Below are positions 1,530 to 18,154 of a stretch of DNA of 36,871 nucleotides, one piece after another. Origin of the DNA: Flavobacteriia bacterium (GTDB lineage Bacteria > Bacteroidota > Bacteroidia > Flavobacteriales > Flavobacteriaceae). The stretch is from contig DAOUQH010000005.1 of assembly GCA_030625645.1 (NCBI GenBank), forward strand, positions 1-36,871, given 5' to 3'. Every line of letters starts with the position of its first letter. Position 1 is the first letter of the stretch. The position numbers and the translations under genes were made by a program. The notes below the pieces were generated by a model. It was given only the letters and a program-made list of their open reading frames with translations. It made no database searches and was not told the origin of the DNA.

Positions 1530-3353
1530 ATGAAAAATATGTTCTCGAATATAAAAGGTGATCTTTTTGGAGGTCTAACCGCAGGAATTGTTGCATTACC
1601 ACTAGCTTTAGCCTTTGGTGTCTCATCAGGTTTGGGCCCAGGAGCTGGTCTATTTGGCGCAATCTTTTTAGGTTTTTTTGCTGCACTTTTTGGTGGTACA
1701 AATACACAAATATCTGGACCAACTGCACCACAAACTGCTGTAAGTATGGTGATGATTGCTGGTGTTATTCAAACTAGTAATGGCGATTTAAGCAAGGCTC
1801 TTCCTATAATTTTAGCTGTTTTTTTATTGGCAGGTATCTTTCAAATTCTCTTAGGCTTAACCGGTGTAGGAAAATACATCAAGTACATACCATATCCTGT
1901 AGTTTCAGGGTTTATGACTGCAATTGGCTTGATAATAATTATCACCAACATACTTCCAATTTTAGGGTTTTATCCAGCAGAAAATCAACAATTAATCGAT
2001 AAAATGAAACCTAAAGCAGAAGCAGTATTGATGCAAAAAATTCTAGAAGAAGAAACTTCTGAAGGTATTTTGGTTTTAGAAAATTTTGAAGAAACCATTG
2101 ATAGAGCAGAGAAAATAAGCCCAGAAGATATTAACAAAGAAGCTGAAATTTTAGCATCTGCTAACGCATCTGGAGTAATCGGTTCAGTAAAAAGTTTACC
2201 TAATGCATTAAAAAATATTAATTATCTAGAATTAATTCTAGCTCTAATCACAATCATAATTATCTATGGTTTTAAAAGGATTACTTCCCTAATTCCAAGT
2301 ACTCTAGTAGCACTACTACTGGTCTCTGGTGTCGCCATTTTTATGAATTTAGATTATCATCCTATTGAAGAAATACCTAGTGGTTTTCCATTACCACATT
2401 TTGAAATTTTTACTAACTTTAGTTTAGAAATGATTTCTCCCTTTATTTTTACTGCCATAACACTTGCCTTTTTAGGCTCTATTGATTCTCTATTAACTTC
2501 TGTTGTTGCAGATAATATGACCAAAACCAATCACGACCCGAATAAAGAGTTAATAGGGCAAGGAATTGGAAATAGCATTGCTGCAATTTTTGGAGGTTTA
2601 CCAGGTGCAGGCGCTACAATTAGAACTGTTGTAAATATAAATGCTGGTGGTAAAACAAAACTTTCTGGTGTTATTGCAGCTATCTTATTGCTTATTATTT
2701 TATTGGCATTAGGTCCTGTAGCATCTAAAATTCCAGCCGCAGTACTTGCAGGAATCTTAATTACTGTAGGAATTGGAGTAATGGATTATAAAGGCTTAAA
2801 ATCAATACCAAACATACAAAAGGCCGAAGTTGTAATTATGATTGTTGTATTGTTGCTTTCAACTTTTTGGAATCTAGTTTATGCAGTTGGTATTGGGTTA
2901 ATTATTGCTTCTTTGGTATTTATGAAAAAAATGGGAGATGTTATTGCTGAAAAATCCGATGTAAAAAGTCTTCTAGAAGAAAAAGCATGGGACGATGAAG
3001 CTAATTTCCCTTCCGAATTAAAACAAAAGGTTTTTATCAAACATATCAAGGGACCCTTATTTTTCGGTTCAACCAGTCATTTTCAACAATTGGCTACCCA
3101 AGTTCCTGATACTGCAAACTACGTAATCATCCGAATGGAAAAAGTACCCTATATTGATCAATCTGGCTTATATGCCATGGAAGATGTATTATTAGGTTTA
3201 GAAAAAAGAGATATACATCCATTATTGGTAAATGTACAAAGTCAACCTGTATATTTATTAGAATCAATTGATATTGTTCCAGATTTGATACCTAATGAAC
3301 ATCTTTTTGATAATTTTAATGAATGTATAAGTTGGATAAAAAAGAATATGTAA
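1530..3353 (+). CDS. SulP (SLC26) family anion transporter with C-terminal STAS domain
   Basis: GLTAGIVALPLALAFGVSSGLGPGAGLFGAI, ISGPTAPQTAVSMVMIAGV, TAITLAFLGSIDSLLTSVVADNMT; STAS-like C-terminus VPYIDQSGLYAMEDVL. Confidence 0.93.
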   Translation: MKNMFSNIKGDLFGGLTAGIVALPLALAFGVSSGLGPGAGLFGAIFLGFFAALFGGTNTQISGPTAPQTAVSMVMIAGVIQTSNGDLSKALPIILAVFLLAGIFQILLGLTGVGKYIKYIPYPVVSGFMTAIGLIIIITNILPILGFYPAENQQLIDKMKPKAEAVLMQKILEEETSEGILVLENFEETIDRAEKISPEDINKEAEILASANASGVIGSVKSLPNALKNINYLELILALITIIIIYGFKRITSLIPSTLVALLLVSGVAIFMNLDYHPIEEIPSGFPLPHFEIFTNFSLEMISPFIFTAITLAFLGSIDSLLTSVVADNMTKTNHDPNKELIGQGIGNSIAAIFGGLPGAGATIRTVVNINAGGKTKLSGVIAAILLLIILLALGPVASKIPAAVLAGILITVGIGVMDYKGLKSIPNIQKAEVVIMIVVLLLSTFWNLVYAVGIGLIIASLVFMKKMGDVIAEKSDVKSLLEEKAWDDEANFPSELKQKVFIKHIKGPLFFGSTSHFQQLATQVPDTANYVIIRMEKVPYIDQSGLYAMEDVLLGLEKRDIHPLLVNVQSQPVYLLESIDIVPDLIPNEHLFDNFNECISWIKKNM

Positions 3354-3454
3354 TAATAAATTCATACTTTTATAGTACGCAGTGTTATTTAAAAACTATT
3401 TAGCTTTGGTATGACATCAGTAAATAAGAATAAAAATTAAAAAAAATACAGATT

Positions 3455-4093
3455 ATGGACAAACCTTTTTATGAATCATTATTAGATAATAATAAAAAAT
3501 GGGTAGTAGAAAAGCTATCGGAAAATAATAATTTTTTTAAAAAATTAGCTGACGGACAAAACCCACATGTATTATGGATAGGTTGTGCAGATTCTAGAGT
3601 TCCGGCTAATGAAATAACTAATACAAATCCGGGAGAAGTATTTGTACATAGAAACATTGCTAATATGGTAGTACATACAGACATGAATATGCTCTCTGTT
3701 TTAGATTATGCAGTTAACGTACTTAAAGTAAGACATGTAATTGTATGTGGCCATTATGGATGTGGTGGTGTTAAAGCAGCAATGACTAATAATTCTTATG
3801 GTATAATTGATAATTGGATTAGACATATTAAAGATGTTTATAGATTTCATAAAGATGAATTAGATTCTATTGATGACGAAAAGAATAGATTCGATCGCTT
3901 TGTTGAATTAAATGTTAAAGAACAAGTTTTTGACTTAGCAAAAACTAGCATTGTTCAAAATGCATGGGAAAATGACCAGGACTTGCAAATTCATGGTTGG
4001 GTTTATCAATTAAGTTCTGGAATTATTAAAGATCTAGATATAAACTTTAAAAGTAACAACGAATTAAATGATGTATATCAATTAGATTTTTAA
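3455..4093 (+). CDS. Beta-class carbonic anhydrase
   Basis: Zn ligands in IGCADSRVPANE and VIVCGHYGCGGVKAAM; VFVHRNIANMV. Confidence 0.93.
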   Translation: MDKPFYESLLDNNKKWVVEKLSENNNFFKKLADGQNPHVLWIGCADSRVPANEITNTNPGEVFVHRNIANMVVHTDMNMLSVLDYAVNVLKVRHVIVCGHYGCGGVKAAMTNNSYGIIDNWIRHIKDVYRFHKDELDSIDDEKNRFDRFVELNVKEQVFDLAKTSIVQNAWENDQDLQIHGWVYQLSSGIIKDLDINFKSNNELNDVYQLDF

Positions 4094-7298: not shown

Positions 7299-7349
7299 CT
7301 ATTTTTATATTGTCAGTATTTTTATAATTTGCAAGTTATATTGCACCTA

Positions 7350-9782
7350 ATGAAAAAGATTATTTCGATTTTATTTTTATTGCTATCATTTTCGTTTTAC
7401 GCACAACAATCGTCTCTTCAACAAAATATTATAGGAACAATTATTGATGCAGAAACAAAACTGCCGCTACCTTATGCAACAATTACTTTTTATTGCGAAA
7501 AAGAAAATGTTTTTAGTGGAGGTATAAGTGATGATAATGGAAAGTTTAATATCAATATTTCTCCAGGTACTTATAAGGTTTCTTTTGAATTTCTTTCATT
7601 TCAACCAAAAATTATCAACTCTTTAGTAGTTAATAAAGATTTAAATCTCGGTCAAATAGTTTTAGATTCAGGTATCGAAAATCTAAATGAAGTTGAAGTA
7701 ACAGTTAGCCAAAAATTGGTTGAATATAAATTCAATAAAAAAATATACAATTCTTCAAAAGACATTGCAAATATTGGTGGAAATGCAATAACTGTTCTTG
7801 AAAATACTCCTTCTGTAAGGGTGGACGATGAAGGAGGAATTTATATAAGAGGATCATCTGTATTGGTTTTAGTAAACGGAAAACCTTTTGGGGGTCAAGA
7901 AAACAATATAGATATTTTGAGTATGATTCCGGCAAACTCTATTTCAAACGTTGAAATTATCACTCAATCTGTAAAATACGATGCAAAAAGTGGAGGTATT
8001 ATAAATATTGTATTAAAAAAAGGAAAAATGCAAGGTTATAGTGGCACCATAGAAGTTCATGGCGGAATTCCTGATAATGACGGAGTATCTTCTTTTATCA
8101 ATTATAAATCTGATAAAATAAATGTCTTTTCTACTGCTAGTTTTAATCATCACGATAGAATAAGAAATTTTGATATCAGGCAGACATATTTCAAAAATGA
8201 AAATAATCCAACAGGATTTTTAGAACAAAGCCAAGAAGATAACCGCCAAAAAAACAGCTTTTTATTTAGTTTTGGAAGTGATTTTTATCTAGATAAAAAG
8301 AACACCATTACAACTTCAATTTTATATACTCTGAGTAATAAAAATTTTGATTCTAATCTCAATTATAATGATTTTAATGCATCTCATGATCCTATTCAAA
8401 TAACGAATAGAGATGTTTGGGACAATACAGATGAATCTATATTCGAGGCTCTTATAAATTATACTAAATCTTTTGATTCTGAAAATCACAAACTCTCTTT
8501 TGATATTCAATATGACAAAAAGAATTCTGATAATATTACAGATATACTAAATATATCTTCCTTAAATTCATTCGATATAACACAACAACAATCAACTAAA
8601 TATCAAAATCTTGATAACTATTTAACACAAGTAGATTACCAGTTTCCTATAAAAGAAACAGGTTTAGTAGAAACAGGAATTAAGGCAAATTTTAGAAAAT
8701 ATTATAATGATTTTTCAGCAAATACTATAGATGATATTGAAAAACATCTTATTCCAATTGAAGGCTATCAAAATGAAATAACCTATGATGAAAATATTTA
8801 TTCTGCCTATGTAAATTTCAGCAAGGAACTAGAAAAGTTTAATTTTACTTTAGGATTACGCACTGAATTAACCAAAACTCAAATCAAAGAAGAAAGTACA
8901 GAAATTGATAATAGAGATACTTATACCGATTTTCTTCCTTCTGTTAGTATAGGATATTATTTTGAAGAGTTATCATCTCTTTCATTTTATTATAGTAGAT
9001 ATATTGAACGGCCTCCGGTACACCTATTAAATCCGTTTGTTTCATTCTCTAATAATAGATTGATTTCAACAGGAAATCCTTATTTAAAACCTGTATATTC
9101 AAATAATTTTATTTTAGAATACTATAAGGATTTTGGGAAAATTAATATAACATCTGCTTTATTTTATACCGGTGAAAAAGATCAAATTTCTAGAGTTTTA
9201 AGTAATTCTGGAAAACAAACAGCAGATGGTCATGATATCTTTGTTAGAAAACCAATAAATAATGGCAACCGTGATCAATATGGTTTTGATTTGAATATTA
9301 TATATATGCCTACAAAATTTATCAGGTTAAACGCATACATTAATCCTTATTATTTCAACCTGCACAACACCAATGATAATGCGTATGATTATAATGATTT
9401 TATGGTTTATGGTTATATACAAACTAACTTAAAGTTACCTAAATCATTTAATTTTAAAATCACTTACCTCTACCAAACCCCTAAGAAAACTGCTTTAACA
9501 AAAATCGGAAGTATTCAATATATAAATGCGACTTTAAGCAAAAACTTATGGGATAATAAAGCTACACTAACACTTAAGGCAAATGATCTTTTCAATTTAA
9601 AAGAAATTACCTACACATCAAATGAAGATAACACTTTTACTGAAGGTAATTGGGTTTATGATTCGCAATATTTACTTTCCTTTACGTATAGATTTAACAA
9701 GGCAAAAAGAAGAGATTCACATAACCGCACTAAAGATATAGATAACGATATATTTGAAAAAGAAGAAACTTTTACAAAATAA
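7350..9782 (+). CDS. TonB-dependent receptor / outer membrane beta-barrel protein with N-terminal carboxypeptidase-regulatory-like domain
   Basis: Signal peptide MKKIISILFLLLSFSFYAQ; GTIIDAETKLPLPYATITF; plug-like NGKPFGGQ..NIDILSMIPANSISNVEIITQ; barrel-like C-terminal half. Track start at 7329 is TTG; ATG at 7350 is preferred. Confidence 0.88.
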   Translation: MKKIISILFLLLSFSFYAQQSSLQQNIIGTIIDAETKLPLPYATITFYCEKENVFSGGISDDNGKFNINISPGTYKVSFEFLSFQPKIINSLVVNKDLNLGQIVLDSGIENLNEVEVTVSQKLVEYKFNKKIYNSSKDIANIGGNAITVLENTPSVRVDDEGGIYIRGSSVLVLVNGKPFGGQENNIDILSMIPANSISNVEIITQSVKYDAKSGGIINIVLKKGKMQGYSGTIEVHGGIPDNDGVSSFINYKSDKINVFSTASFNHHDRIRNFDIRQTYFKNENNPTGFLEQSQEDNRQKNSFLFSFGSDFYLDKKNTITTSILYTLSNKNFDSNLNYNDFNASHDPIQITNRDVWDNTDESIFEALINYTKSFDSENHKLSFDIQYDKKNSDNITDILNISSLNSFDITQQQSTKYQNLDNYLTQVDYQFPIKETGLVETGIKANFRKYYNDFSANTIDDIEKHLIPIEGYQNEITYDENIYSAYVNFSKELEKFNFTLGLRTELTKTQIKEESTEIDNRDTYTDFLPSVSIGYYFEELSSLSFYYSRYIERPPVHLLNPFVSFSNNRLISTGNPYLKPVYSNNFILEYYKDFGKINITSALFYTGEKDQISRVLSNSGKQTADGHDIFVRKPINNGNRDQYGFDLNIIYMPTKFIRLNAYINPYYFNLHNTNDNAYDYNDFMVYGYIQTNLKLPKSFNFKITYLYQTPKKTALTKIGSIQYINATLSKNLWDNKATLTLKANDLFNLKEITYTSNEDNTFTEGNWVYDSQYLLSFTYRFNKAKRRDSHNRTKDIDNDIFEKEETFTK

Positions 9783-16465: not shown

Positions 16466-18154
16466 CTATAAACTATTAAATTCTACCAAATTAGCCTCAT
16501 AATATTGATCTCCTAATTTTTGCAATAAATTATTTATAACATTTACATCTCCATCAATAGCGAGTGCAGAATACCCTATCTTATTTCTTTTCCCTAGTCG
16601 TAAATCAATAATATTGATATTTTTTGAAGCTAAAGCTGAAAGCAATATTAGCAATACTCCTGGCGAATTATTATGCTTTGTTAGAATAACTTTTTTACTT
16701 AATGCCAATTTTAACTCTACTCCATCCATTTCATAAAGATAAACGTCATCTCTATTATAATTAGGTAAATCTGCATTTTCATTAAAGGATAATTCTAAGA
16801 ATACATCTTGATCAGAACCTTTAATAAATTCAATTGCATCATTGATTTTTCCATTATCTTCTGTAACCTGTAAAAAAGCAACTGCTGTACCATCATTATT
16901 CGATTTTAATCTTGCTGTATTTACATTAATTCCTTCAGAAGCCATTGTATTAAATATAGAAGAAATTACTCCTGGTTTATCAATATGCTTTGAAAATAAT
17001 CCTTTAACCTTATTCGTTTCATGCTCAGGAGTTTCATTGCTTATGGTTATTGATTTCTCTCCATTTCGAATTCTTATCGCATTATAATCGCCCATTCCTG
17101 TAGCATTTTTATAAATATCTAAAAATTTAGAAAAACTTCCACCAAATGAAAACTCGGGAATAATCCTACGATTTTTATAATTAAATCGCTGATTTAACAA
17201 TTCAATTCCTTTATTTAATATGGTATATTTTACTTTTAATTCGTGATTATCAAAAATGGTTCGCTTTTCAGGAATCAATTTCGAATAACTAACATAATGC
17301 AAATAACCAGAGTCATGAATATATTTTAAACTCTCCTTAAAATTAAGTCCGTAATTCTTTATATGATGCGTATCAGTTCCCAAAGCGACCGGTATTCTAA
17401 GCTCATGCGCCCGTCTTAAAACATTTTGTGTTGGGTAAACTCCGCAACCTTTAACCTTACCTGCCATATTAACATCTAAAGCTAAATTTCTATCGGCAAT
17501 TGTTTCTAAAAGAGTTCGGAATTTATTTGCCAAAGGGTGTGAACTATTTTCAAAATTCTGTAGAGATTCTGGAACTTCAACATTTAGTTTTGGAAGATCT
17601 AAATGACCAATAATCTGAATCATATCTCCAAAACTCTCGATCATTTCTAACATTTCATCAAAATAACCACTCCAAAAATTCTCTAAACTTCCTCTTAATT
17701 TTAACAACTCATTTGCTTCTTTAACAGATCCATCATAAGGCAATCCCTCAGGAGCAAAATGTACAGAACCAATCACAAAATCGGCATCTTCTGCCTGAAA
17801 GATCTTCGACCTACTCCACTGCAAACCAATATCAGATCCCATCCATTCTAATTCTACTCCATACTTAATATTAATTTTCCCGGCATATTGCTTACGTAAT
17901 TTGGCAATTCTTTTTGGGTAATCGATATACGAACGGTTTCCTCGAATAAATTTCACATTAGTTTCCTTCTCAGCTGAATATCTAAAATTTGTTAATCTAG
18001 GTGAATGAATAATAAAAGTAACACTAGGGTGTCTTGCGTCGATGGCTTTTTCAACAATATCCTCTAATTTATCAATTCCGTGTTTTACATGATCTTGTTC
18101 TGTACCAGCATGAATTCCATGTGTTTCCCAAATAAAATCGTTGTATTTTTCCAT
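16466..18154 (-). CDS. PHP-domain phosphoesterase (histidinol-phosphatase-like) fused to two C-terminal ACT domains
   Basis: PHP: THGIHAG, FIIHSPR, YGVELEWMG, VIGSVHFAPEGLPYDGS, QIIGHLDLPK, PVALGTDTHH. ACT1: GLFSKHIDKPGVISSIFNTMASEGINVNTARL. ACT2: VILTKHNNSPGVLLILLSALASKNINIIDLRLGKRNKIGYSALAID. Confidence 0.8.
   Translation of the reverse strand: MEKYNDFIWETHGIHAGTEQDHVKHGIDKLEDIVEKAIDARHPSVTFIIHSPRLTNFRYSAEKETNVKFIRGNRSYIDYPKRIAKLRKQYAGKINIKYGVELEWMGSDIGLQWSRSKIFQAEDADFVIGSVHFAPEGLPYDGSVKEANELLKLRGSLENFWSGYFDEMLEMIESFGDMIQIIGHLDLPKLNVEVPESLQNFENSSHPLANKFRTLLETIADRNLALDVNMAGKVKGCGVYPTQNVLRRAHELRIPVALGTDTHHIKNYGLNFKESLKYIHDSGYLHYVSYSKLIPEKRTIFDNHELKVKYTILNKGIELLNQRFNYKNRRIIPEFSFGGSFSKFLDIYKNATGMGDYNAIRIRNGEKSITISNETPEHETNKVKGLFSKHIDKPGVISSIFNTMASEGINVNTARLKSNNDGTAVAFLQVTEDNGKINDAIEFIKGSDQDVFLELSFNENADLPNYNRDDVYLYEMDGVELKLALSKKVILTKHNNSPGVLLILLSALASKNINIIDLRLGKRNKIGYSALAIDGDVNVINNLLQKLGDQYYEANLVEFNSL

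Follow-up and report, generated by a model that had tools for sequence, protein, structure and literature searches.

A PHP-ACT-ACT protein of Flavobacteriales as a candidate serine-regulated phosphoserine phosphatase

A gene in a 36,871-nucleotide stretch of a Flavobacteriia bacterium genome (contig DAOUQH010000005.1; the whole stretch is referred to as the window) encodes a HisJ-type PHP phosphatase domain followed by two ACT domains, the second of which resembles that of phosphoglycerate dehydrogenase (SerA). With moderate confidence, we propose that this protein, PHP-ACT-ACT, is a PHP-superfamily phosphoserine phosphatase under serine feedback and a non-orthologous replacement of SerB. We also lean, if slightly, toward a class of phosphoserine phosphatase not described before, in which a PHP enzyme would act at the last serine step and the serine sensor would sit on the phosphatase and not on SerA. 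A known catalytic family and a known sensor occur here in a combination that suggests a yet unascribed function.

The open reading frame runs from an ATG at 18154 to 16466 on the minus strand (window ORF list), and its features are collected in Table 1. Pfam scans of the protein matched PHP (PF02811; 44.8 bits, cutoff 26.4), ACT (PF01842; 35.9 bits, cutoff 27) and, over ACT2, ACT_AHAS_ss (PF22629; 30.2 bits, cutoff 27), and an NCBIfam scan matched the HisJ family (TIGR01856 hisJ_fam; 117.6 bits, cutoff 90.2). Cutoffs of the HisJ equivalog models were missed (PRK08123, 95.3 of 133 bits; PRK05588, 42.9 of 321 bits), and neither scan matched a HAD domain in the protein. ACT models matched all 12 members of an alignment of the C terminus. 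In a structure model of residues 373–562 built from two sequences (pLDDT 77.4, pTM 0.68), both ACT units form a complete beta-alpha-beta-beta-alpha-beta fold and are joined via a beta-hairpin. The PHP-like N terminus and the two C-terminal ACT units that the first-pass annotation had read from the sequence are thus borne out by the PF02811 and TIGR01856 scores and by the PF01842 and PF22629 matches with the two-unit model, respectively; checking the C terminus for an ACT fold by profile search and structure model yielded two. A Foldseek search with the modeled ACT pair returned assorted tandem ferredoxin-like proteins as best matches, at low TM, among them Mycobacterium avium SerB2 and the IlvA regulatory domain, a result that supports the modeled fold class only. 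A full-length AlphaFold model from two sequences was unusable (pLDDT 42.7).

Table 1. Features of the PHP-ACT-ACT gene (window coordinates)
Feature	Coordinates	Strand	Basis
Whole gene, PHP-ACT-ACT, 562 aa	16466..18154	-	ORF and full-length homologues
HisJ-type PHP phosphatase domain, aa 1-296	17267..18154	-	PF02811, TIGR01856, HisJ alignment
Linker, aa 297-372, conserved, without family match	17039..17266	-	
ACT1, ~aa 383-461	16772..17008	-	Pfam PF01842 and structure model
Beta-hairpin, aa 471-484, around EMDGVELKLAL, seen also in a long phosphoglycerate dehydrogenase	16703..16744	-	Profile alignment to Bacteroidota SerA, and model
ACT2, SerA-like, ~aa 488-558	16481..16693	-	Profile/PDB matches, model

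The sole PDB matches of the PHP-domain profile were the solved HisJ-type histidinol phosphatases 3dcp, 2yxo and 4gc3. Using the HisJ alignment and general knowledge of PHP enzymes, we assigned putative metal ligands H12, H15, H25, H50, E101 (or E103), H132, H184, D261 and H263. Every one of them is invariant in 12 full-length sequences, including one of only 55% identity. The NTAG motif of HisJ (3dcp, 2yxo) is replaced by NMAG in 12/12 homologues, the first metal motif is fixed as H-x-x-H where HisJ has H-x-H, and a family-specific basic block (PRLT..RY.AE.....KFIRG) is fixed in the homologues.

The evidence for a serine sensor comes from the C terminus. When this region was scanned by itself, its best NCBIfam match was phosphoglycerate dehydrogenase, to which 12/12 homologues matched (best E-values 5e-16 for TIGR01327 and 8e-14 for PRK11790). 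The third match was the beta subunit of iron-sulfur serine dehydratase, and non-serine families matched more weakly and in few of the 12 members. The main PDB match over ACT2 was E. coli SerA (~1e-6), and one Bacteroidota SerA aligned over ACT2 and the preceding hairpin at 35% identity. The suggestion that the second ACT unit is SerA-like therefore stands, with SerA models giving the best fit and the IGY...D stretch falling at residues 526–534. Three ACT2 residues invariant in 12/12 sequences (H494, N496 and N514) align with H344, N346 and N364 of E. coli SerA, its serine-site residues. The H344A/N346A mutant, serA(fr), was used for serine production (PMC9612172). This His/Asn/Asn triad is suggestive of serine as the effector but falls short of proof, because its histidine is not kept in the long SerA that we compared. 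We infer on good grounds that the ACT pair would gate the phosphatase in response to an amino acid.

Full-length homologues occur in related genomes at 73%–79% identity: in the genus of the window, in several other genera of its family and, at 73%, in another family of the same order. A single genome from a different class of the phylum (G723) has one at 55%. A scan of named genomes returned one true relative, a Flavobacteriaceae metagenome bin (79% identity), and one ordinary HisJ; a plasmid search for relatives gave ordinary HisJ only. The gene is rare and patchy, with carriers making up seven of 394 Flavobacteriales genomes and one of 114 in the distant order of G723. Within the window's genus, genome G005 (contig 242; L028:1000-1250) holds a decayed copy at the same locus beside xerD, with both ends left, stop codons and a large internal deletion. 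That genome is also without SerB and without the HisB phosphatase domain, possibly as an auxotroph or through an assembly effect.

In the window, the gene is flanked by xerD/aroQ and, at its opposite end, by a CoA carboxyltransferase, confirming the earlier remark that no serine or histidine biosynthesis gene is adjacent; serC-serA is found on another contig of the same genome (G000). Gene order provided no operon evidence, as there is no conserved partner and the neighbors are xerD, CoA carboxyltransferase, recG/M1 aminopeptidase or cysS, depending on the genus. In G052 a D-2-hydroxyacid dehydrogenase lies close to the gene, which we rejected as a link: serC of G052 is on another contig with a dehydrogenase of its own, and the arrangement was seen in no other genome compared. 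Straight after serC-serA in the window's genome comes a DUF1015 protein (L104:7791-9035), and DUF1015-like ORFs hold the same position in several other flavobacteria. As a candidate for the missing phosphatase it is not discriminating, since a similar ORF occupies the same place in the SerB-bearing genome G255. Elsewhere in the window, an 817-aa ORF (7329-9782) had no NCBIfam match at E 1e-8, and, at 1530-4093, a SulP-type transporter whose score against the BicA bicarbonate transporter model falls short of the cutoff adjoins a carbonic anhydrase; the two are possibly a bicarbonate uptake pair.

We then asked which serine and histidine pathway genes accompany PHP-ACT-ACT. All carriers within the order sample have SerC, and in the four carriers checked (G000, G105, G038 and G052) serC adjoins a SerA of ~320 aa that has no ACT domain. 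The SerB model (TIGR00338) gave background matches only in 12/12 flavobacterial carriers and the profile of the fused HAD (SerB-SerA type) gave none, in a search that covered these two types of phosphoserine phosphatase. SerB is absent from G723 too. Among the compared non-carriers, some of them hand-picked, 10 had a true SerB (>260 bits) and six a HAD-SerA fusion. The N-terminal histidinol-phosphatase domain of HisB was found in 11/12 carriers, the exception being the window's own genome, which is 69% complete; with that domain in place, the 11 would not need a HisJ. Judged by gene content, carriers appear able to make phosphoserine and to have a histidinol phosphatase of their own, and to do without the standard phosphoserine enzyme.

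This pattern has to be read against its background. SerC is present in 376/394 Flavobacteriales genomes and SerB or the fusion in 98/394, which means that SerB/fusion is missing from ~75% of the order. About 270 other genomes of the order have SerC and neither a recognizable SerB or fusion nor PHP-ACT-ACT, which keeps the SerB gap from being diagnostic. Flavobacteriales probably have a further, so far unrecognized phosphoserine phosphatase, and the carriers may have such an enzyme too. Within the family, carriers occurred in six of 21 SerB-less genera and in none of 32 genera with SerB or the fusion (P = 0.0024, phylogeny ignored and some non-carriers hand-picked), suggestive of an avoidance of SerB genera at the genus level only; at the order level, 0/7 carriers with SerB was not significant (P = 0.13). 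The order of G723 was uninformative as an independent test, the relatives there having no SerB above cutoff either. The comparison with serB and hisB put forward in the first-pass annotation is consistent with the idea: carriers lack SerB and nearly all have HisB, but the test is weaker than hoped because SerB absence is common in the order. We also noted, in ~34/394 Flavobacteriales, a fusion of ~635 aa that joins a HAD phosphoserine-phosphatase-like domain to phosphoglycerate dehydrogenase and carries an ACT-like region at its C terminus (L039-L044; e.g., L042:1483-3387), uniting the initial and final steps of serine synthesis in a single protein.

Phosphoserine and histidinol phosphate, the two substrates first guessed at, had been left equal. 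Phosphoserine is now favored by the SerA-type sensor with its aligned serine-site residues and by the presence of SerA and SerC together with the absence of SerB, and histidinol phosphate is disfavored by HisB in nearly all carriers. The two compounds have a common R-C(NH3+)-CH2OPO3 end. SerB-like enzymes have been proposed as histidinol-phosphate phosphatases in four bacteria (Price et al. 2018; PMC5764234); by analogy, the reverse switch, in which a HisJ takes on phosphoserine, would seem no harder chemically. In the proposed mechanism, SerA and SerC supply O-phospho-L-serine, which the HisJ-like metal center would hydrolyze to L-serine and phosphate. L-Serine would lower the activity by binding at the interfaces of ACT2, in the manner of E. 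coli SerA, the tandem ACT being expected to dimerize and bind serine at its interfaces by analogy with SerA and mycobacterial SerB2. Pathway control would then sit on the last enzyme, which fits with the ACT-less SerA of the carriers checked. A precedent for such feedback is mycobacterial SerB2, which has a HAD catalytic domain and two ACT domains and is inactive as a serine-bound oligomer (PMC4270767, PMC10564941).

The score above the HisJ-family cutoff and the histidinol phosphatases among which the nearest solved structures lie would suit a true HisJ, a histidinol-phosphate phosphatase with an added regulatory ACT pair. We regard this as unlikely, given a HisB with its own histidinol-phosphatase domain in 11/12 carriers, the bifunctional hisNB reported in all Bacteroidetes surveyed (PMC8305728), a sensor that is SerA-like, NMAG for NTAG in 12/12 sequences and the H-x-x-H first metal motif. 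Still less probable, to the point of being remote, is a non-catalytic or moonlighting sensor on a kept PHP fold: it could account for H-x-x-H in place of the usual N-terminal H-x-H, and is opposed by putative metal-ligand positions that are all invariant down to 55% identity.

A more serious competitor, albeit one to which we give clearly minor weight, is a phosphatase that answers to an amino acid but acts on some other small phosphoester (a nucleotide, a sugar phosphate or another phospho-amino acid). Its effector would be serine, glycine or a branched-chain amino acid, and serine would be made via a different phosphatase. A different phosphatase for serine synthesis is probable in view of the ~270 SerC genomes described above, PHP enzymes are diverse (tyrosine phosphatases and diesterases appear in the literature consulted) and ACT2 fits the AHAS small-subunit ACT model as well. 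What speaks against it is that the SerA-type effector residues are invariant, that SerA models fit the C terminus best and that, within the family, carriers keep to genera lacking SerB. These same observations lead us to prefer a phosphoserine phosphatase under serine feedback.

In the literature searched (mostly non-subscription papers), we found neither a PHP-ACT combination nor a PHP-type phosphoserine phosphatase. When pathways are reconstructed from genomes, phosphoserine phosphatase is repeatedly the step that is missing: SerA and SerC occur with no known SerB in 450 gut genomes (PMC9026213), and GapMind lists several unresolved SerB gaps (PMC7311316). PHP-ACT-ACT provides a concrete and testable candidate. 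If the proposal is true, phosphoserine phosphatase activity would stem from PHP as well as from the HAD and histidine-phosphatase superfamilies, and the same feedback logic would be found on unrelated catalytic domains. From its family match the protein would probably be annotated as a histidinol-phosphatase, which would mislead pathway prediction. Across the order, the ACT domains would be placed in different ways: in tandem on SerB, on the SerB-SerA fusion, or on the PHP enzyme while the SerA checked has none.

PHP-ACT-ACT shares features with several known systems. It has the catalytic fold of HisJ (TIGR01856; 3dcp, 2yxo, 4gc3) along with every putative metal-ligand position, and from this likeness a similar amino-phosphoester substrate chemistry would be expected; it differs in NMAG, the H-x-x-H first motif and the basic block, and in its two ACT domains, whereas the solved HisJ chains (~270–285 aa) have none. 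Its C-terminal ACT is like that of SerA (TIGR01327, PRK11790), as are the hairpin in front of it and the aligned residues of the serine site, but the catalytic domain of SerA is a dehydrogenase and here the sensor sits on a phosphatase. SerB and SerB2 (flavobacterial SerB; M. tuberculosis SerB2) are alike in the predicted reaction and in serine feedback via tandem ACT domains; their HAD domain, however, belongs to an unrelated catalytic superfamily, and their ACT pair is N-terminal. Finally, the phosphoserine phosphatases listed in PMC9026213 include enzymes of the HAD and histidine-phosphatase types. Those that replace SerB non-orthologously, as proposed here for PHP-ACT-ACT, are SerB2 (histidine-phosphatase superfamily), SerB3 and SerB4, and no enzyme listed there is described as PHP.
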